Source: Saprospiraceae bacterium
Lineage (GTDB): Bacteria > Bacteroidota > Bacteroidia > Chitinophagales > Saprospiraceae
DNA: 64,000 bases
Direction: 5' to 3'
NCBI GenBank assembly: GCA_025055285.1
Contig: JANWXM010000002.1
Location: 124,239 to 188,238, forward strand
The notes below the pieces were generated by a model. It had not been told where the DNA came from and searched no databases. It worked only from the letters and a program-made list of their open reading frames with translations. This document shows positions 8,135-43,922 of the stretch, one piece after another (the stretch's first letter is position 1; every line of letters starts with the position of its first letter). The translations under genes and the position numbers were made by a program.

Positions 8135-11100
8135 CTACCTTACTTCTGTGAGGATGATACGCGCAAAAAATTGCCTTTGTCTACTCACTCCATAGATTAA
8201 GTAGGTACCCGCAGGCAAGGCGGGAAGACGCACCTCCCATGGCGCCTCGCCCTCTGAGGAATAACTAGACTGCCACACCAATTGACCGCACAAATCGTAA
8301 AGCGATAATTGCCACGCTTCAACTGCCTGTGGCGTCATTTGGATCCAGAAGTTTCCTGTCGAGGGATTTGGATAAAGGTGCACTTGCGCAACATATCCGG
8401 GCGTTTGAGTGTGGACGGTGATAATTTCTACTGGTGCCGATACGGCCGTGCAGCCGTTCGCATCGCGTACGGTAACCGTATAGACGCCGTCGGGCAGATT
8501 GGAAAAGACCGGCGAAGGTTGAAAATGCAGGCCATCTAGGCTATACTCTAATGGGCCTGTGCCACCAGAGGCGTTGGCCGTTAAAGTATTTGATACAGCA
8601 GCGGCTGATATTACAAGAGCAGGTGGGTCGTCTAGGGTAACCGTCACGAGAAGCGTATCTCCGAGGGCATCGGTGAGTGTGACGATGTAGGTACCAGCAC
8701 TCAGTTGGTTACGGAAACAGCGGTTGGTGCTTAGCTGCACGCCGTCGCAGGCGAAGGGCGGCACACCTCCGAGAATTTCTATTTCGAAAGCGCCATCAGA
8801 GCCTCCGGCACAGGCGGGAAATGTGCGCGTCAGGAGGGCAACCATAGGGACGTAAAAAACTTCGAAGGCGACGGTATCCATGCACTCGTTTGCATCGGCA
8901 ACTACAACAACGTGTCTTCCATTAGAGAGTCGGCTAAGGGTGCTGTCCGCCGTCCATGAGTCGCCGTCCCAGGCAAAGCGGTAAGGTGGTGTACCGCCAC
9001 TGACAGAAACAGAGGCGTTAGGGCCAACTACAGTCACCTCTGCAGTCAAGGGTGTCGGGCCATGTATGTAGAAAGTATCGCTAGCTATCTGATTGCCCGC
9101 GTCGTCGCGTAGAACAATCACGTGTGCACCCGCCTCGACTGCTTCCCACACACTATCGGGCTGAAATAAGGCTCCATCCAAAGAATAGGAGTAAGGAGGT
9201 ACACCTCCTGTCGCGCTAACGAACACGCGCACCGTTTGACCTGCACACCGAATCTCCCCATCTACGCTTATATGCAGCAGTCGAAACGGCGGTACATCTA
9301 CCAACACAACTGCTTCAGCCGTGCAACCTTTCGCGTCGCGCACCGTGACGGTATACTCGCCGTTATTCACCCCTTTAAACACCGGTTGCGTTTGGAAAGC
9401 ACTGCCATTCAGGCGATAAGCGAGAGGACCTGTGCCGCCGCTGGCTGTTACCTCGATTCGATTCAGAACAGACACGGCATTTATCTCAAGAGGTGGCGGT
9501 TCTTCAACGATAAAAGTTTGCTCGGCCATAGCGCCGTGTTTGTCCTGCACTATCGCAGTGTATTGCCCTGCGGATAGAGCGCTGAAGAAACTACTGAACT
9601 GAAAATCCGTTCCATTGAGGCTGTAAGAATAAGGAGGTGAGCCTCCTCCCGCAGTTACTTGAGCGGTGCCATCACTACTGCCAAAACAACTAACGGGTGT
9701 CGTTCGCACCTGCAACACCGCCAAGGGCCCTACGTAGACGATAACTTCCGCCATGGCCGTACATCCTTTCGCATCCTTAACCTCTACTGAGTAGGTGCCA
9801 TTAGGCAAATCAGGGAAAAGCGGCTCTTCTTGATACGCATTTTCGCCTAAGCGGTATCGATACGGAGGAATTCCACCTGAAACCTCTACTAGAATGGTAT
9901 CGGTAGTGGTGGAGAGATGCACTATTATAGGAGGCGGGTTCAATACTTCAACCGAGGGCGAGACCGCAGTAAAACCCCATCCATCGGTAACGACGACGAA
10001 ATAGGTGCCGGAGCCTAGGTTTTTAAATACTTCATCGCCCTGTATTATCCCGCTAGGAGCCAGTTCATAGCGATAGGGAGGTTTGCCCCCCTGAACGGTG
10101 GCTCGTAGGCGAGCCGTAGCACCATTGTGACAGTGCAATGAGTCGAGCACTTCGAGCGAGACAATGAGGTCGTTCTGGGCAATTTGGATGGGAAAAACCT
10201 CGTAGTGAAGCCATTGGCTCGTAGCAACATTGAGCACGTCGAAGGCAAAAGCATCTTGCACAGCTATGCCGCCGTTATTCGCATAGGCAATACGGCCGGC
10301 GTCGACATCTGCTTGGGTAAATACGCTACCGACGGTCAGCACCTGACCATTGTGCAACAGTTGTCCATGTTGAGGCAGAGATAGCAGAGTAAATTGAAGG
10401 CTCTCAGGACTGTGACCAGCTGGGTCTGCCTGTAGTAAAGAGCTATCGATGGGAGCCATTTGGCCGGCTGCAAGCATAAGAGGTTGCTTTCTGAGCAAAG
10501 TGGCCTTCCTTATCGTATCCCACAGGCAGCAGCGCAAGGCCCAGCCCTCTATGGCGCCGCCGTCTTCTTCTGCCAAGTCGCGTACCTCTAGGCGCCAGGA
10601 GCCGAAGGCAGGTCGACTGTGAAAACGCGCTAAAGCCTCGATGGGTCGGAACACACCTTCGATTGCCGGCGATTGAGCCTTACACATCTTCTCAAAATCG
10701 TTTGCCGTTTGAACCGCTTCGTCGTCGAAAGTGACTAAGATGTCGTCCTTCGAGCACCCAGTAGTAGATGATGGTACCCCTGGCCGGTCAAAGAGGAGAA
10801 CGCGGCTGCCCGTCGGGCCAATAAGCGAAGCCTGCAGATCTCCTACCCATTCATGGCGAATGTTTACCCAGACATCTACGTCGGCCAATGGCCGGGCGTC
10901 AGTGACTAAAAGTGAAGCGCTTACTACTGAAGTTCGAGTACTAGGGATAAGAACGGGCACATCTTCGCTGCGAAACACTATGTCGCATTGCTTTTGGGCA
11001 ATTTGAAAGGCTCCTGTAGATGAGTAAGCACTTTGCCCGCAAGCGTTTTCAGCACGCACCCGCCAATAATAGACTGTACCGGGCTGCCAGAAACCTCCCG

Positions 11101-13507
11101 AGGCCTGAGCATAAGGCACCGCTGCCTCCCGAACGATTTGCTCCGGCAGAAAAGCTGGGCTTCGACTGACCTGTATCCGATAATGCGAGGCGTTGTCCAC
11201 AGGAGTCCATTGGAAAGAAACATTGGGCACGACTTCGCTCTGACCATCAACCGGAGCAAGAAGGGTAGGAGCTTGCGGTACACCCTCAACTACCCGAAGC
11301 GAAATGGCTTGCTCACGCACAAGAGTATCGCTTACGCCTCTCAACACAAGCGTGTATTGACCGGGTGTTTTCAGGTAATTAAGTACAATGCGAACACTAT
11401 CACCTACTGGAAAGGGATTAGACCAAGAAGAGGCGATAGCGCCAGGCGGTAGGCCTTCGAGATATAGGGCAATATTTTCTGAAAAACCTGCTACACTCAG
11501 CGTGCGCACCCAAAATACAAGTGAATCTCCCACGCATCGCTGCACTTCACTAGGGGCGTCGGCACTCAGCAGGAAGGTTGGCACAGGCGGCCGCTCAATG
11601 CGGAAATTTCGGTCAGAAATATCGAAGAAAATATTGTCTACGGCCTGAACTCGTATGCGGCAACTATCGGATACTAGGAGCGGCACCTCTATCTGGGTCT
11701 CGCCGTTGTTGGGCACGGGGCCAGCCAAGAGGTATGGATACGTCCACCCTCCATCAGTAGAGAGAAGGATGATTACTTCTGAGCAATTGACTGGTGCCGT
11801 ATGGGTGTTGGCTACCTCCCAGCGCACAGTTTGCTGAGAGCCCGCATACCATACTGTTGGCGCATTGGGCTCCAACACTGCAAATGGCCCGCTCTGGCTA
11901 GCTACAGTTATGTTCACTTCTGCAGAGGCAGTGCATCCACCGCCAGGGTAGTTGTCGCGGGCCGTTACGCGAAACCGCATTGTACGCCCCACTGCGGGGA
12001 GGCGCTCCCACGGATTTATTGCATTGTCAAGCAAAGATTCCAAAGCAGGAAAGTACCGCTCAGGCGATGCAGTAGGCTTTAAGGAGCGAAACATGGGCCC
12101 AACTGCATTGCTTGGTTGAGGCGGCATAGGAGCAGTTTGAGGATTCATCTGCTCCCAACAATAAGTAAGCGCATCGCCATTAGCATCTAGGCCCTCCGCT
12201 GTGAGAACAAAGGGAGTAGCGCGAGGAATAGTATACGTTACCTTGCCCTCAGCAGGCGTGACAGTAGGTCTATGATTGCCCAAGTCTACTTTGTGCGCGC
12301 ACCCATTACCTGGGCCCAACACAGTATACTGGTGAATTTCCTGGAGACTAATAGCGTGAAAGTAGTCGTCGCTGTGGGCTTGCACATTCGGCGGACAGAT
12401 CCCTGCATAGCCCATAATAGTAGAACCACTACCAGGCTCTACAGCAGTGAGACTATTTCGACTACAATTGTTGTTATGGGTATGGTTGGCTCCAAATTGA
12501 TGCCCCATCTCGTGCGCCACGTAATCAATATCAAAAGCATCGCCTACAGGCTCAGAGCGGCCTGTTACGCCGCGCGCTTTCGTATTATTGTTGCAAACTA
12601 CTCCCAATCCGGCTACACCACCGCTACCTGTAGCAAACACATGACCAATGTCGTAATGCTCGGGCCCGATAAGGGTATTGCACTTGTTCACATTTTGCGA
12701 AAGCATCGCCGATAAGTTGCTGTTGGAATACCCATCGGTATCGGGATTTAAAAAGATGAGCGTGTCATTGTTGGGTACTAACTCCATCGTAATGCCTAGA
12801 TCGCGCTCGTATACACCATTGACGCGATTAAGCGTAGTTATCATCGCTGCTAATGCTCGCGCCTTCGTCCCTCCGTGGAACTGGGCATACTCTCCCGTGC
12901 AGGCTAACGCCAACCGATAGCGACGCAATAAGCAATCGCCCGTTAATGCAGGAGCTGTGCCTTCGAAACGCTCAATGGGCAAAGGCGAGTCTTCCACAGC
13001 ACAAGTCCAGTTTTCTTTAGGTCGTTTTAGGTCTGATTTAAAGTAAACAATCCCATCGTTTCGATCTGAAGAAATCGGGTCAACAAAGACTGGATCGTGA
13101 CGGGCAGACAAAATCATGGCACTAAAGCCCCTGGGTGTTAGCTCACACTTGAGCGAAGCCGTTGGATCTTCCACTCCAATGCCCGTGTAGGTGCGAATAT
13201 CTGGATACTTCTCCTGTAATGCCGGTGGCATTATTGGTGATTCAACTATTCGAAAATGCTGCAAAGACCCGTCGGGCAAGGGCAACACAAGCTCTACCTC
13301 TTGACCGCGCCTAGCTTCAAAACGCAGGGGTGCTGTGGCGAGTGTTTTGCCCAAGTGAGTCATGTCCCAACAAACATACCGAAAACGCTCAGGCAAATTA
13401 CGGTCCCTTATAGGAAGGAGTGGCTCTGGACATTCTGTAAAAAATTTTTGAGAAAAAACTCCGAATGGAAACCAAATTAATAATAAAAAACAGTATAAAT
13501 TCCTCAT
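8135..13507 (-). CDS. Giant T9SS-secreted metzincin metalloprotease with SprB-like repeats
   Basis: The 1790-residue protein has a signal peptide (cleavage near residue 19) and a propeptide-like region to about 185. A reprolysin-like catalytic domain follows, with HEMGHQFGANH at residues 332-342 and the Met-turn STIMGYAG (M365). Then come Ig/PKD-like domains, a fibronectin-III-like domain (about 745-835), a proprotein-convertase P domain (about 840-995) and a cadherin/CSPG-like repeat (about 1005-1090). Four tandem pairs of SprB-type units (about 1115-1700, GG-PPY-Y cores) precede a T9SS type A sorting domain (VHLYPNPSTGNFW to the end). It is probably exported and anchored at the surface or released, and degrades protein. 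The start at 13507 gives an intact signal peptide. Confidence 0.93.
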   Translation of the reverse strand: MRNLYCFLLLIWFPFGVFSQKFFTECPEPLLPIRDRNLPERFRYVCWDMTHLGKTLATAPLRFEARRGQEVELVLPLPDGSLQHFRIVESPIMPPALQEKYPDIRTYTGIGVEDPTASLKCELTPRGFSAMILSARHDPVFVDPISSDRNDGIVYFKSDLKRPKENWTCAVEDSPLPIERFEGTAPALTGDCLLRRYRLALACTGEYAQFHGGTKARALAAMITTLNRVNGVYERDLGITMELVPNNDTLIFLNPDTDGYSNSNLSAMLSQNVNKCNTLIGPEHYDIGHVFATGSGGVAGLGVVCNNNTKARGVTGRSEPVGDAFDIDYVAHEMGHQFGANHTHNNNCSRNSLTAVEPGSGSTIMGYAGICPPNVQAHSDDYFHAISLQEIHQYTVLGPGNGCAHKVDLGNHRPTVTPAEGKVTYTIPRATPFVLTAEGLDANGDALTYCWEQMNPQTAPMPPQPSNAVGPMFRSLKPTASPERYFPALESLLDNAINPWERLPAVGRTMRFRVTARDNYPGGGCTASAEVNITVASQSGPFAVLEPNAPTVWYAGSQQTVRWEVANTHTAPVNCSEVIILLSTDGGWTYPYLLAGPVPNNGETQIEVPLLVSDSCRIRVQAVDNIFFDISDRNFRIERPPVPTFLLSADAPSEVQRCVGDSLVFWVRTLSVAGFSENIALYLEGLPPGAIASSWSNPFPVGDSVRIVLNYLKTPGQYTLVLRGVSDTLVREQAISLRVVEGVPQAPTLLAPVDGQSEVVPNVSFQWTPVDNASHYRIQVSRSPAFLPEQIVREAAVPYAQASGGFWQPGTVYYWRVRAENACGQSAYSSTGAFQIAQKQCDIVFRSEDVPVLIPSTRTSVVSASLLVTDARPLADVDVWVNIRHEWVGDLQASLIGPTGSRVLLFDRPGVPSSTTGCSKDDILVTFDDEAVQTANDFEKMCKAQSPAIEGVFRPIEALARFHSRPAFGSWRLEVRDLAEEDGGAIEGWALRCCLWDTIRKATLLRKQPLMLAAGQMAPIDSSLLQADPAGHSPESLQFTLLSLPQHGQLLHNGQVLTVGSVFTQADVDAGRIAYANNGGIAVQDAFAFDVLNVATSQWLHYEVFPIQIAQNDLIVSLEVLDSLHCHNGATARLRATVQGGKPPYRYELAPSGIIQGDEVFKNLGSGTYFVVVTDGWGFTAVSPSVEVLNPPPIIVHLSTTTDTILVEVSGGIPPYRYRLGENAYQEEPLFPDLPNGTYSVEVKDAKGCTAMAEVIVYVGPLAVLQVRTTPVSCFGSSDGTAQVTAGGGSPPYSYSLNGTDFQFSSFFSALSAGQYTAIVQDKHGAMAEQTFIVEEPPPLEINAVSVLNRIEVTASGGTGPLAYRLNGSAFQTQPVFKGVNNGEYTVTVRDAKGCTAEAVVLVDVPPFRLLHISVDGEIRCAGQTVRVFVSATGGVPPYSYSLDGALFQPDSVWEAVEAGAHVIVLRDDAGNQIASDTFYIHGPTPLTAEVTVVGPNASVSVSGGTPPYRFAWDGDSWTADSTLSRLSNGRHVVVVADANECMDTVAFEVFYVPMVALLTRTFPACAGGSDGAFEIEILGGVPPFACDGVQLSTNRCFRNQLSAGTYIVTLTDALGDTLLVTVTLDDPPALVISAAAVSNTLTANASGGTGPLEYSLDGLHFQPSPVFSNLPDGVYTVTVRDANGCTAVSAPVEIITVHTQTPGYVAQVHLYPNPSTGNFWIQMTPQAVEAWQLSLYDLCGQLVWQSSYSSEGEAPWEVRLPALPAGTYLIYGVSRQRQFFARIILTEVR
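8400..10170 (-). repeat. Eight degenerate SprB-type units encoded in tandem
   Basis: The coding sequence holds four copies of a module of about 145 residues. Each copy is a long unit with a Cys-containing opening (such as PVSCFGSSDGTAQV) and a short unit with GGTGPLAYRLNG, ending GEYTVTVRDAKGCTA. Nucleotide identity is low, so copies are ancient rather than recently duplicated. Boundaries are approximate. Confidence 0.75.
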
Positions 13508-14310: not shown

Positions 14311-15342
14311 ATGGTTTATAGCAACATTTTAGAGACTATTGGCAAAACCCCGCTGGTTCGTCTGCACAAAACTGTTGCAGGACTTTCTGCCCAAGTGTAC
14401 GCGAAACTAGAATCGTTCAACCCGGGTTTAAGTGCAAAAGATCGCATTGCTTTGCACATCATCGAACGCGCAGAACAGTTGGGCCGACTTCGACCAGGCG
14501 GCACGGTTGTAGATGCCACTAGTGGCAACACCGGTTTTAGTCTAGCAATGGTATGCGCCATTAAAGGCTATCGGTGTGTGCTTACGGTCACAGACAAAAT
14601 CTCAAAGGACAAGCTGAACAATTTGCGCGCCATGGGTGCCGAAGTAATTTTATGCCCGAAAGATGTGCATCCTAATGACCCTAATTCGTATGTGAAACGT
14701 GCGGAACAATTAGCGCGCGAGATTCCGGGTGCCTTTTATGCCAATCAAAACTTCAACATTGACAACGCCGAAGCGCACTACTTGAGCACTGGCCCAGAAA
14801 TTTGGGAGCAAACAGGGGGAAGGGTTACCTGGCTGATTGGCAGTGCGAGTACGGGCGGCACGCTTTGCGGTGCCGGTCGCTACTTGCGGGAGCAGAATCC
14901 GAAAATAAAAATCATCGCTGTTGATGCTTACGGCTCCGTCTTGAAGAAATACCACGAAACAGGTATTTACGATGAAAGAGAAATTGCTCCCTACCAAATT
15001 GAGGGAGTAGGAAAGAATTTTATTCCAGGAAACGTAGACTTTGAGCTAATCGACCGTTTCATTAAAGTTACGGATAAGGACAGCGCCTTGTGTACGCGCA
15101 AACTGGCTAGATGTGAGGGCATTATGGCAGGTTATTCTAGCGGAGCCGTTCTACAATGCCTCTATCAGATAGAAAATCAATTAACCACTGACGACGTAGT
15201 AGTGCTGCTTTTTGCCGACCATGGAAGCAAATACATATCAAAGGTTTTTGACGACGATTGGATGCGCAAGCAGGGCTTCTTGCCTGCTGAAGGAGAGGCC
15301 ACGGTCGAAGTGAACACTGCTGCCCAGCAAGAAGTCATTTAG
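14311..15342 (+). CDS. PLP-dependent cystathionine beta-synthase-like enzyme; candidate cysteate synthase
   Basis: A fold-type II PLP enzyme of 343 residues. The Schiff-base lysine is K43 in NPGLSAKDR, the phosphate-binding motif is TSGNTG (70-75), and a Gly-rich GSASTGGTLCG loop is present. The pattern VTDKISKDKLNNLRAMGAE and the YQIEGVGKNFIP segment look more like cystathionine beta-synthase than plain cysteine synthase, but there are no C-terminal CBS domains. The next gene, 48 bases downstream, is a serine-palmitoyltransferase-like enzyme. In sulfonolipid-making Bacteroidota a CBS-like cysteate synthase (CapA) supplies L-cysteate to such an acyltransferase, which is the inferred role. The alternative is ordinary cysteine or cystathionine synthesis. 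Confidence 0.8.
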   Translation: MVYSNILETIGKTPLVRLHKTVAGLSAQVYAKLESFNPGLSAKDRIALHIIERAEQLGRLRPGGTVVDATSGNTGFSLAMVCAIKGYRCVLTVTDKISKDKLNNLRAMGAEVILCPKDVHPNDPNSYVKRAEQLAREIPGAFYANQNFNIDNAEAHYLSTGPEIWEQTGGRVTWLIGSASTGGTLCGAGRYLREQNPKIKIIAVDAYGSVLKKYHETGIYDEREIAPYQIEGVGKNFIPGNVDFELIDRFIKVTDKDSALCTRKLARCEGIMAGYSSGAVLQCLYQIENQLTTDDVVVLLFADHGSKYISKVFDDDWMRKQGFLPAEGEATVEVNTAAQQEVI

Positions 15343-15368
15343 GACGAACTGTTGTTTCTTTATCTTTG
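15338..15368 (+). promoter_or_regulatory. Bacteroidota-type promoter before the acyltransferase gene
   Basis: TTTA at 15338-15341, a 19-bp spacer and a perfect TATCTTTG at 15361-15368 fit the TTTG/TAnnTTTG consensus with one mismatch. The start codon at 15391 follows after a short leader. The gene can therefore be transcribed independently of the upstream PLP enzyme. Confidence 0.5.
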
Positions 15369-15390
15369 CGCCCTTATTTTTTAATAAATT

Positions 15391-16632
15391 ATGGACTTAT
15401 TTGCACGCATTCTCGAACAAGCTGGCCCTCTGGGCAAGTACGCCGACGTAGGCGAAGGTTACTACATGTTTCCTCAGCTAGAGGGGGAGCTGGGAAATCG
15501 AATGTACTTCCGCGGAAAGGAAGTCATTTGTTGGAGCATCAACAATTACTTAGGTTTGGCTAATCATCCTGAAGTGCGAAAAGCAGATGCTGAGAGCGCT
15601 GCTCGATGGGGTTTAGCCTACCCCATGGGTGCTCGCATGATGAGTGGCGAAACTAAACGCCATCAAGAACTGGAGACGGCGCTAGCTCATTTTGTAGGTA
15701 AGGAGGCTGGCTACTTGCTCAATTACGGCTACCAAGGCATCCTTTCGGTTATCGACGCACTATTGTCGCGCCGCGACGTAGTCGTATATGACTCAGAGAG
15801 TCACGCATGTATCGTAGACGCTGTACGCATGCACCTTGGTAAGCGCTTCGCCTTCGCACATAATGACATCAACAGCTTGCATAAAAACTTGGAACGCGCT
15901 CATAGAATCGTCCAAGAAACAGGCGGTGGAATCTTGGTCATTACTGAGGGCGTATTTGGCATGCGCGGCGACCAAGGCAAGTTGCGCGAGATCGTCGCGC
16001 TAAAAGAACACTACCCCTTCCGCTTACTCATCGACGATGCTCATGGCTTTGGAATGCTAGGTAAGACAGGAGCGGGCACAGCAGAAGAGCAAGGAGTGAC
16101 CGAGGAAGTAGATCTCTACTTTAGCACTTTTGCGAAAAGCATGGCGCTCATCGGAGCCTTCATCGCCGGCCCGAAAGACATCATCCGCTATCTGCGCTAC
16201 AACATGCGCTCGCAAATCTTCGCTAAAGCATTACCTATGCCTATAGTGGAGGGAGCTTTGAAGCGCTTTGAACTCTTGAAATCGCGCCCGGAGCTGCGCG
16301 AGCGCCTATGGCACAATGTTCGCACTCTACAAAATGGTTTGCGCGAGCGCGGTTTTGATTTGGGCGATACCAATACTTGTGTAACACCGGTATATATGCG
16401 CGGGCCACTCGAGGAAACCTCTATGCTGGTGCGAGATTTGCGGGAAAACTACGGTATCTTTTGCTCCGTGGTGATCTACCCCGTTGTGCCCAGAGACATG
16501 GTCATCCTTCGATTAATACCTACAGCAGTGCACACAGATGAAGACATTCGCCTAACGCTTGAGGCTTTCTCGGCTGTGCGTGAAAAGCTGGAAAGGGGTG
16601 CTTATCGAAATCTTATTCAGCTACCCGCCTAA
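15391..16632 (+). CDS. AONS/serine-palmitoyltransferase-family enzyme; candidate cysteate acyltransferase
   Basis: A 413-residue fold-type I PLP enzyme of the alpha-oxoamine synthase family, which joins an amino acid to an acyl thioester with loss of CO2. The PLP lysine is K249 in YFSTFAKSMALIGAF. The LIDDAHGFGMLG motif (213-224) and H138 in DSESHAC, the likely ring-stacking His, are also visible. It has the NNYLGLANHPEV opening of serine palmitoyltransferases and no extension. Products in this family include 3-ketosphinganine and 3-ketocapnine. The adjacent CBS-like gene favours cysteate as substrate (CapB-like), but serine, glycine or alanine cannot be excluded by sequence reading. A reductase partner is not seen next to it. 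Confidence 0.85.
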   Translation: MDLFARILEQAGPLGKYADVGEGYYMFPQLEGELGNRMYFRGKEVICWSINNYLGLANHPEVRKADAESAARWGLAYPMGARMMSGETKRHQELETALAHFVGKEAGYLLNYGYQGILSVIDALLSRRDVVVYDSESHACIVDAVRMHLGKRFAFAHNDINSLHKNLERAHRIVQETGGGILVITEGVFGMRGDQGKLREIVALKEHYPFRLLIDDAHGFGMLGKTGAGTAEEQGVTEEVDLYFSTFAKSMALIGAFIAGPKDIIRYLRYNMRSQIFAKALPMPIVEGALKRFELLKSRPELRERLWHNVRTLQNGLRERGFDLGDTNTCVTPVYMRGPLEETSMLVRDLRENYGIFCSVVIYPVVPRDMVILRLIPTAVHTDEDIRLTLEAFSAVREKLERGAYRNLIQLPA

Positions 16633-41468: not shown

Positions 41469-43766
41469 TTAAAAGTCTACTATAAGCGTCGCCATTACGT
41501 TTCGCCCTGCCTGAGGGAAAAATCCCGCCTGATGATACACACCGTTGCCTTCGTAACGCGTGTAGGGGTTGTCTGGGCGCGCATCATAACTATTGGATAT
41601 GTAGCGATACACCCACCCATTGGCTGCAAATTGGGCGTCGAGCACGTTATTAACCGTTACCACTAGTCCTAAACGCCGGCCTACAAATGCTTCCAAATTG
41701 TAGTTGAGCCGCAAATCTGCGAAGAAGTAGCTCGGTAATACTGTGTTGGTATTGCTAGTGTTGTCCAAAAATTGACGACCCACGTACTTACCTGCTATAG
41801 CTACACTCAATGCATGGCGCTTCTGAACAGGGAGTGGTAACACGTCCCATCTTGCCTCGAGTCGAGCTATCACAGGCGGAGAGAAAGCCAGGTCGGTGCG
41901 GTGAAAAACGACAGCCTCTTGCTCTCCTGTGTCCCAATTGTCGCGATATTCAACAAATTTGCGCACCTTGTTTTGGCTAACAGTGGCGGCACCTATCAAA
42001 GATATACGGCGCCACGGAGTCCACATTCCTTCGAGTTCTAATCCCAGGCGATAGCTTTGAGGGATGTTTGTTCGAATGTAAGCTCCTACGTCGTTGATAC
42101 GCCCGTCAAGTGCGAGTTGATCGCGATAGTACATATAGAAAGCATTCACAGTCCACTCGAACGCGGTAGAACGATACTTTAGTCCACCTTCCCAGTCATA
42201 TAGGCGCTCTGGGCGCGGGCGACTGGCTGGAGTGGATTGGGTATAATCATCGCGATTTGGTTCTCGATTGCCAATGCCAAAGAAGGCATAAGCCGTCCAC
42301 TGAGGTTGAATTTGCCAATGTAAGCCCAATTTTGGGTTGAAGAAATTTAGACGCACGGCCTGGGTCACGTTGTTGCCGTTCTGGTCAAAGCCTAAGAACG
42401 TATATCGCACTGTGCGGTACTGCAGGTCGAGCAGCGTAGAGAGCCCTCTTCTCAAAAAAAGGTCAATTCGACCATATAGGTTGAAATCGCGCTTATCCGC
42501 ATCGTTGTCGTAATAAAGATGGCCTTTAGGAATATCGTACTGAGCCCAGATAACCTCTCCAAAGTGGCGACCGAGGTATCGGTTCCACCCTCCGCCCAAC
42601 ATCAGGACGGGAGGAGCGTGTAGGCCAGGTGGATTGATGGGCGGCTCCCATCGGAGGGCGAAAGTAGTACCATAAAAATGATTGTCTAGCCAACGACGAC
42701 GCACTAGATCGGTTCTCTCAATGGGCATTCCACTAGGAGCTGGCGGCTCCAGGCCGTAATCCCGGTAAACTTGAGCAGCCTTGTACTGCTCATAAAAGCC
42801 AAAGCCGCGCGTGTAATGGCCATTGAGTTGCAAATCAAGGCCTATGCCCATTCTCCGCTTATAGTGCAGCAAATAATGTCGCTGGGTATAGTCATCTACC
42901 TCATCGGGATAAGGTTCCCCTGGCCGCTCAGTACCTGCAACATTATAAGTGCGCAAACTATCTACCTCTAGAAATTGAGCGGGGAGCCCGTACCAGGCTT
43001 GGTAGGTGCGCTCATGTCCCGATAGCACATGCATCTGTACAGACTGACGCTCATCTACATAGGTTCCCATTAAATGGTACGAGCGCATTCGTGCCGTCGC
43101 GCGATCTACGTACCCATCTGAAGTAATCTGCGAGAGCCTTCCTGTAAATACTAGGCGCTCTCCCAATAGACCAGAGCCTATGTAAATGGAATGCCTTCGC
43201 GTATTGAAAGAGCCGAACGTATTCGTGATTCGAGCAAAAGGCTCTGGTTGGACGCGCGATAGGTCGAGGTTGACAGTAGCGCCAAATGCTCCTGCGCCGT
43301 TGGTGCTCAGACCCACCCCGCGCTGCACCTGAATCTCAGCAGCGGAGGAAGCTAGGTCGGGCAAATCTACCCAGAAAACATTCTGACTTTCCGCGTCATT
43401 GAGCGGAATTCCGTTAATGGTTACGTTGATGCGCGTCTGGTCGCTACCTCGAATGCGCATAGAGGTGTAGCCAATGCCTGTGCCAGCATCTGAAGTCTCA
43501 ACTAGTGAAGGAATAGAGGTGAGCAAAAAGGGTACGTCTTGGGCGTGATAGATGCGCTGAAGCTGTTCATCAGAGACGTTGGTATGCGGTACAGGAGTCT
43601 TTTTCCCTGCACGCGTCGCCTGAATAACGACCACTTTTAGGGTTGTTGCTTCCGACTCTTTCAAGGTATCAGCAACGGAAGCTTTCTGAGCAAACATTGG
43701 GATAGGGTAAGAAAGGCCTGTTAGCACGCATGCGACAAGCAGCCTGCTGTTTGAAAACGAAAACAT
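41469..43766 (-). CDS. TonB-dependent receptor under TPP riboswitch control; likely thiamine-related uptake
   Basis: A 765-residue outer-membrane receptor with a signal peptide ending MFAQ. The plug domain (about 45-180) contains VPFLLTSIPSLVETSDAG, MRIRGSDQTRINVTINGIPLNDAESQ and QVQRGVGLSTNGAGAFGATVNL. The 22-strand barrel ends RNVMATLIVDF, with the usual terminal Phe. There is no carboxypeptidase-like N-terminal domain. A TPP riboswitch lies in the leader, so thiamine, its phosphate or a precursor is the inferred ligand. This is the family context known for such receptors in Bacteroidota. It stands alone as a transcript; no pnuT or thiamine kinase gene is adjacent. Confidence 0.93.
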   Translation of the reverse strand: MFSFSNSRLLVACVLTGLSYPIPMFAQKASVADTLKESEATTLKVVVIQATRAGKKTPVPHTNVSDEQLQRIYHAQDVPFLLTSIPSLVETSDAGTGIGYTSMRIRGSDQTRINVTINGIPLNDAESQNVFWVDLPDLASSAAEIQVQRGVGLSTNGAGAFGATVNLDLSRVQPEPFARITNTFGSFNTRRHSIYIGSGLLGERLVFTGRLSQITSDGYVDRATARMRSYHLMGTYVDERQSVQMHVLSGHERTYQAWYGLPAQFLEVDSLRTYNVAGTERPGEPYPDEVDDYTQRHYLLHYKRRMGIGLDLQLNGHYTRGFGFYEQYKAAQVYRDYGLEPPAPSGMPIERTDLVRRRWLDNHFYGTTFALRWEPPINPPGLHAPPVLMLGGGWNRYLGRHFGEVIWAQYDIPKGHLYYDNDADKRDFNLYGRIDLFLRRGLSTLLDLQYRTVRYTFLGFDQNGNNVTQAVRLNFFNPKLGLHWQIQPQWTAYAFFGIGNREPNRDDYTQSTPASRPRPERLYDWEGGLKYRSTAFEWTVNAFYMYYRDQLALDGRINDVGAYIRTNIPQSYRLGLELEGMWTPWRRISLIGAATVSQNKVRKFVEYRDNWDTGEQEAVVFHRTDLAFSPPVIARLEARWDVLPLPVQKRHALSVAIAGKYVGRQFLDNTSNTNTVLPSYFFADLRLNYNLEAFVGRRLGLVVTVNNVLDAQFAANGWVYRYISNSYDARPDNPYTRYEGNGVYHQAGFFPQAGRNVMATLIVDF

Positions 43767-43823: not shown

Positions 43824-43840
43824 TGGTGATGCTTCTCCCC

Positions 43841-43918
43841 ACTCATTCCCTTCCCGGCATTACCCGGGCAGGTTCGATGGGTATGATCTCAGCCTCAACA
43901 AAGGCACCCCAATGAGTC
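43841..43918 (-). promoter_or_regulatory. TPP (thi-box) riboswitch
   Basis: On the minus strand the element has all hallmarks of the thi box: P1 ACTCATT/AATGAGT (perfect, 43841-43847 with 43911-43917), GGGGTGCC, CTGAGA, the GAACCTG core and CCGGGTAATGCCGG. The receptor gene starts 75 bases downstream. In this class TPP binding turns expression off. Confidence 0.96.
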
Positions 43919-43922
43919 GACG

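Follow-up and report, generated by a model that had tools for sequence, protein, structure and literature searches.

Do two adjacent genes of a Saprospiraceae bacterium carry out the first two steps in the synthesis of capnine, the base of sulfonolipids? The question is raised by a stretch of 64,000 nucleotides (positions 124,239 to 188,238 of contig JANWXM010000002.1, assembly GCA_025055285.1; hereafter, the window). An earlier examination of the letters alone (the original prediction) had described here a pyridoxal phosphate (PLP) enzyme resembling cystathionine β-synthase (CBS), devoid of CBS domains and encoded 48 bases before an enzyme of the α-oxoamine synthase (AONS) type with the lysine K249; both open reading frames proved to be intact (Table 1). 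The source genome (G000, whose contig C22 holds the window) consists of 3.6 Mb in 93 contigs, and is 100% complete and 0.2% contaminated. The analysis of the two sequences, P0001 and P0002, indicates that the pair very probably encodes the first two steps of the pathway, i.e., a cysteate synthase (CapA) and a cysteate acyltransferase (CapB). In the proposed mechanism, CapA would convert O-phospho-L-serine into an aminoacrylate on PLP, to which sulfite would be added to yield L-cysteate; CapB would hold cysteate at K249 in the form of an external aldimine and join it to a fatty acyl-acyl carrier protein or acyl-CoA, giving 3-ketocapnine with the loss of CO2. An unlinked reductase would then form capnine, which would be N-acylated. 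The earlier claim that the pair supplies and acylates cysteate for a sulfonolipid of the outer membrane held as far as the identity of the genes is concerned; the lipid itself and its location can only be inferred, as can the substrates, the reactions, the reductase, and the N-acyltransferase.

As regards the second gene, the best PDB match of P0002 is 28eh ("Cysteate-C-fatty acyltransferase", 624 bits), followed by 7u7h (SulA of Alistipes finegoldii, alfi_1224, 582 bits) and then by a serine palmitoyltransferase (SPT), 3a2b (229 bits); the identities in the alignment are 64.1%, 60.5%, and 32.5%, respectively. The same genome contains separate SPT and Kbl genes, whose products are 31.6% and 31.0% identical to P0002, and the nearest named CapB matches come from Saprospiraceae metagenome-assembled genomes (MAGs). 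The PLP lysine is K249, while K279 corresponds to Lys281 of SulA, which is an alanine in SPT and was proposed by Radka et al. (PMC9304779) as the marker separating the two enzymes. All ten SulA active-site residues that were checked, whose roles are taken from the same paper, are kept in P0002: besides K249 and K279, these are the equivalents of N53, G115, Y116, H140, D217, H220, T248, and R376. Lysine occupies both the PLP and the diagnostic positions in 156 of 156 CapB-type rows (147 distinct, window included), whereas the 37 fetched SPT-type rows and the reference 3a2b all combine lysine with alanine; the rows are fetched sequences matching over more than 330 residues, whose type had been set by the best tblastn query prior to any inspection of the residues. 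Matches, identities, and residues all place P0002 with the cysteate enzymes and not with SPT or the glycine enzymes, and on this sequence basis it is a cysteate acyltransferase of the CapB/SulA type.

The first gene is less ordinary. P0001 contains only the Pfam domain PALP and no CBS domain, and its PLP lysine is K43, according to the alignment with the SxKDR motif. In sequence, P0001 is closest to 9k2p among the PDB entries (406 bits), followed by a CBS (278 bits), and 9k2p, entitled "CapA1 from Capnocytophaga ochracea", is also the top fold match of its AlphaFold model (mean pLDDT 90.1), with an E value of 2.3e-44 and 53% identity, the next being a CBS at 6.2e-36. In a tree of 73 rows, the 41 capB-adjacent CapA rows and 9k2p were split from 30 CBS rows with support of 100/100; besides the row of the window, 40 of the 71 available capB-adjacent rows had been used, chosen by hand. 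The same split, again at 100/100, was obtained with 36 rows, with no outgroup and with the addition of a CapA from another genus of the same family. The placement of the P0001 group as sister to the CBS of its own genome was rejected by the approximately unbiased (AU) test (p-AU 0.0095). Some residues of P0001 are of the CapA type, namely, S77, A206, and the pair K235/N236 (E/D in CBS), the last of which might represent a switch towards an anionic substrate.

The organization of the locus was compared in 80 named CapB loci, examined with flanks of up to 6 kb. A full-length CapA-like match was found in 57 of them, three of which (L044-L046) are of the window's kind, and in all 57 it lies on the same strand, less than 350 nt upstream of capB. 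The capA-capB arrangement is thus beyond chance. Among the 30 CapB loci fetched for the genus (window included), CapA is located within 310 nt in 15, at 1.0-1.5 kb upstream with one gene in between in 12, and the remaining three are at a contig edge, so that CapA precedes capB in 27 of the 27 informative loci. These loci were fetched with 1.5-kb flanks, and the 15 close ones were not pooled with the 57, since no other outcome was possible. CapB itself is present in 36 of the 37 genomes of the genus, that of the window included (it is missing from G015 and partial in G028). In the survey of the phylum, CapA was found, among the matches listed, immediately upstream in 19 of the 70 CapB-bearing genomes of the class (coordinates read by hand); in other genomes with CapB, such as G127, G191, and G344, the only CapA match listed is of CBS size, which suggests a different or unlinked source of cysteate.

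The basic arrangement is already known: in C. ochracea, CapA and CapB belong to the same two enzyme families as the pair in the window, and their accessions (C7M8J5/C7M8J6; ACU93374.1/ACU93375.1), as given in the available part of PMC12927429, are consecutive, suggesting that the two genes are neighbors there too. Unlike the genome under study, Alistipes has no CapA homologue and uses an archaeal-type cysteate synthase instead, according to the accessible text of the review PMC10191378. Two side observations concern CapB in other lineages. Outside the class, L229 and L230 (genomes G345 and G271; also G311) show a CapB-like stretch within open frames of 1113-1171 amino acids, possibly fusion enzymes. 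Moreover, the CapB genes of L047 and L080 occur on contigs labelled Thermoanaerobaculia (81% identity) and Limnohabitans (65%), which are probably Bacteroidota contigs misbinned within those MAGs.

The first alternative to be weighed accepts P0002 as a cysteate acyltransferase and regards P0001 as a paralogue of CBS or cysteine synthase, without the regulatory domains, working in sulfur amino acid metabolism. Several observations point in this direction, or in any case away from the assignment of the pair to capnine synthesis. The mean identity of P0001 is 53.0% to flavobacterial CapA and 9k2p vs. 52.0% to CBS (54% in the alignment with Capnocytophaga CapA1), and its score with the NCBIfam CapA model (NF053679) is 474.0 bits, below the cut-off of 600 and no better than that of its own CBS (474.6). 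Out of 24 alignment columns that distinguish CapA from CBS, 10 resemble CapA in the genus, five resemble CBS, and nine neither. Residue 180 (window 14848-14850), in the PLP phosphate loop GTGGT, has changed from glycine to serine in 15 of 15 rows of the genus, whereas it is glycine in all the other 54 CapA rows and in the 30 CBS rows compared, and it is conceivable that the function of P0001 has been altered through Ser180. In addition, the stems of CapA and of its Saprospiraceae branch are long, so that long-branch attraction is possible in the trees; the hypothesis submitted to the AU test was named only once the first tree was known; a full CapA-like gene beside CapB is missing from 23 of the 80 named loci, in some of them because the contig ends; and the search for the third enzyme, the reductase CapC, over the short-chain dehydrogenase/reductase (SDR)-type places of the genome gave nothing diagnostic, no CapC being named.

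Nevertheless, a CBS paralogue is an improbable explanation. P0001 falls together with CapA1 and the flavobacterial CapA proteins (100/100), and its placement as sister to the genome's own CBS is rejected; a longer CBS, with a frame of 455 amino acids, is located elsewhere in the genome, and the position of P0001 before capB is conserved. The NCBIfam CapA scores are 486 bits for the genus-mate L029, 450 for L122, 646 for the flavobacterial L049, and 630 for 9k2p, and the model may have been set on the flavobacterial branch; with the CBS model TIGR01137 (cut-off 510), P0001 (381 bits) and the own CBS (478 bits) both remain below. NCBIfam scores and pairwise identity were, hence, discarded as discriminators, being uninformative for the branch of the genus, and since they fail to separate CapA from CBS, the assignment relies upon the trees, the order of the genes, and a small number of diagnostic residues. 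These support the view of P0001 as a divergent cysteate synthase, whose top sequence and structure match is CapA1 of C. ochracea, yet which forms a separate branch below the NCBIfam cut-off. The two identities originally proposed, CapA for the CBS-like gene and CapB for the AONS-type gene, are therefore both supported. The pair appears ordinary in kind and well supported, with a divergent CapA, and it extends the known pathway to a lineage whose CapA scores below the curated cut-off; because of this, annotation may miss the CapA of the genus.

A different possibility concerns the use of the product. All 12 wide gaps between capA and capB in the genus are occupied by a single gene on the same strand, coding for 273-287 amino acids. 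It matches Cupin_8 (PF13621) in the members that were scanned (two of the 12, plus the L044 copy), and its PDB matches, in the one member searched, are JmjC hydroxylases of the JMJD5 and FIH types (best E value 1.7e-24). In G013 (L030/L044), a 79% identical copy is located directly after capB, so that the locus of 13 genomes of the genus contains this conserved gene, 12 times between capA and capB (e.g., in L232 and L024) and once after capB; no copy is present in the 64-kb window. Its occurrence is not linked to SPT, which is found in six of these 13 genomes. Judging from the gene position, one might guess that the enzyme hydroxylates capnine or its precursors, and this oxygenase-like gene is a candidate for a modification step that may have gone unrecognised. 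It might then be argued that the pair provides 3-ketocapnine for a non-bulk use, such as a signal resembling the rosette-inducing factor or a modified (e.g., hydroxylated) sulfo-sphingoid, all the more so as a sulfonolipid of Algoriphagus acts as a signal, according to the available part of PMC3463246. Such a use is very improbable: CapB, found in 36 of the 37 genomes, is distributed as would be expected for a core function in the membrane, and the known producers hold sulfonolipid in the outer membrane, as stated in the part of PMC9304779 that deals with it.

The SPT of the genome lies on another contig, C15, and carries the SPT alanine; it scores 638.7 bits with NF047600, just below the cut-off of 640. 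It belongs to an apparent ceramide cluster (Table 1), whose desaturase has the sphingolipid Δ4-desaturase domain PF08557, which looks unusual within a bacterial SPT cluster. That P0002 might be an SPT as well, and the pair a part of sphingolipid synthesis, is hardly credible: the superfamily is the same and the SPT model is the best NCBIfam match of P0002 (289 bits, far below 640, no CapB model having appeared in that scan), but P0002 is 32% identical to SPT vs. 60-64% to the cysteate enzymes, has lysine at the SPT alanine, and coexists with this separate SPT and its own cluster. P0002 was thus rejected as an SPT, and likewise as a Kbl (31.0% identity). The genes of the cluster are named by analogy, on the assumption that bCerS resembles GNAT proteins and CerR the epimerases. 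The fatty acid hydroxylase and the Δ4-desaturase-domain genes are additions with respect to the known SPT-bCerS-CerR pathway, which uses serine and not cysteate, and with which the cluster shares SPT, GNAT-like, and NAD-epimerase genes; in Caulobacter, as far as the accessible text of PMC11087976 reports, bCerS is the acyltransferase and CerR the reductase of ceramide synthesis.

Within the genus, SPT was found in 19 of 37 genomes, 18 of which also possess CapB; the diagnostic residues were checked in eight of the 19 SPTs and the other 11 were assigned by score (that of G010 is partial). The GNAT gene is present, with at least 385 bits, in all 19 SPT genomes, and in 18 of them SPT is its neighbor and has the same orientation (in G010, the GNAT gene is on another contig); among the 18 SPT-negative genomes, one (G029) reaches 385 bits, four have a weak match, and 13 none. 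Therefore, the presence of the GNAT gene varies with that of SPT, whereas capB is retained. The idea that this GNAT gene might be the capnine N-acyltransferase is weakened, since all 13 SPT-negative genomes with no match (E 1e-20) have CapB.

In the survey of 296 genomes of the phylum, a strong SPT match (at least 471 bits, a limit chosen after the gap in the scores had been seen) was found in 11, eight of which also contain CapB (G000, G127, G183, G344, G191, G282, G306, and G352), with the diagnostic residues of both enzymes checked in all eight. The CapB-like proteins (392-474 bits) of 38 genomes from other classes do not enter this count, nor do 73 further genomes matching the SPT query at about 370-401 bits, although the 19 of these that were fetched carry the SPT alanine. 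Among 18 named CapB genomes, chosen by hand from the 80, both pathways were found in three Saprospiraceae MAGs (those of L048, L057, and L070); no strong SPT match was detected in the fourth Saprospiraceae MAG (L122) nor in the other 14.

It has been suggested that the production of sulfonolipids and that of sphingolipids may be mutually exclusive in Bacteroidota, and the reason has been asked (2023 review, PMC10191378, in its available part). The culture results reported in the accessible text of PMC5591296, where strains of Parabacteroides, Bacteroides, and Porphyromonas made no sulfonolipid, fit this exclusivity for gut bacteria. The literature searched, which excluded most subscription papers, disclosed no strain for which both lipids had been reported. 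At the level of the predicted genes, the exclusivity does not hold, because the first enzymes of both pathways share one complete genome with low contamination, 18 of the 37 genomes of the genus, and eight of the 11 survey genomes with strong SPT. The genes do not prove the lipids, and silent or conditional expression, or errors in MAG binning, are possible, although the pattern is repeated in many genomes and in more than one family. A broader reading, to which somewhat less than an even chance is given, is that true sphingolipids are made in this lineage alongside sulfonolipids: the genus-wide capA-capB pair would be accompanied in about half of the genomes by the cupin_8 enzyme, hydroxylating the sulfonolipid or a precursor, and a patchy, separately inherited SPT cluster would yield hydroxylated, Δ4-unsaturated, eukaryote-like ceramides. 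If true, the proposed exclusivity in Bacteroidota would be broken, sulfonolipid synthesis would gain a tailoring enzyme, and natural comparisons would become available within one genus, where strains that have or lack the ceramide cluster represent a direct test of exclusivity. What deserves to be followed is the co-occurrence of the pair with the ceramide cluster and, in the relatives, the oxygenase-like gene of the locus.

Concerning the third step, there is no reductase gene adjacent to the pair, as had been noted at the outset, and the same is true of the published Chryseobacterium and Alistipes cases. The pathway of Chryseobacterium gleum (Cys/CFAT/KCR) is the same as the one proposed here, and the ketocapnine reductase genes of C. 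gleum and A. finegoldii are unlinked to the first ones, according to the available part of PMC11211663. The genome-wide search for CapC envisaged in the original prediction disclosed 16 SDR-type places above the Pfam cut-off (one only when counted with its neighbors), though no single one could be assigned; 15 were taken up, L243 being left out of the examination, and six were compared with the NCBIfam models and one with the PDB. The SDR match and the C-terminal tail of the gene on G000:C44 (L245) would make it a guess for CapC.

Table 1. Position of the features discussed in the text.
Feature	Sequence	Position	Strand	Description
capA-like gene (P0001)	window	14311..15342	+	343 aa, intact ORF; PLP fold-II cysteate synthase (predicted), no CBS domains
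intergenic gap capA-capB	window	15343..15390	+	48 nt
TAnnTTTG match	window	15361-15368		within the capA-capB gap
capB/sulA/cfat gene (P0002)	window	15391..16632	+	413 aa, intact ORF; cysteate acyltransferase (predicted), AONS family
metalloprotease-like protein	window	8135-13507	-	1790 aa; type IX secretion system (T9SS)-sorted; reprolysin-like domain, P-domain, cadherin-like region, SprB repeat; flanks the pair upstream
TonB-dependent receptor gene	window	41469-43766	-	
thiamine pyrophosphate (TPP) riboswitch	window	43830-43921	-	just upstream of the receptor gene
cupin_8 gene	L232	2482-3336	-	~285 aa
cupin_8 gene	L024	507-1358	+	~285 aa
cupin_8 gene	L044	3369-4211	+	~285 aa; after capB
apparent ceramide cluster	G000:C15, L266	4873-10382	one direction	FA_hydroxylase, SPT, GNAT-type, desaturase (PF08557), NAD epimerase, PgpA; little or no gap

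In the window, the pair is flanked upstream by the gene for the metalloprotease-like protein and downstream by an acyl-CoA dehydrogenase-like gene; since both are on the opposite strand, the unit consists of two genes. The short gap between them holds TATCTTTG, matching TAnnTTTG, the -7 element of Bacteroidota. A promoter of its own for capB is only a possibility, because the window contains about as many copies of the motif as chance predicts (42 found vs. 40.8 expected); likewise, the scan for sigma-70 promoters and terminators gave sites no more numerous than expected by chance. Elsewhere in the window, the TPP riboswitch located just upstream of the TonB-dependent receptor gene suggests that the latter encodes a thiamine-regulated outer-membrane transporter.

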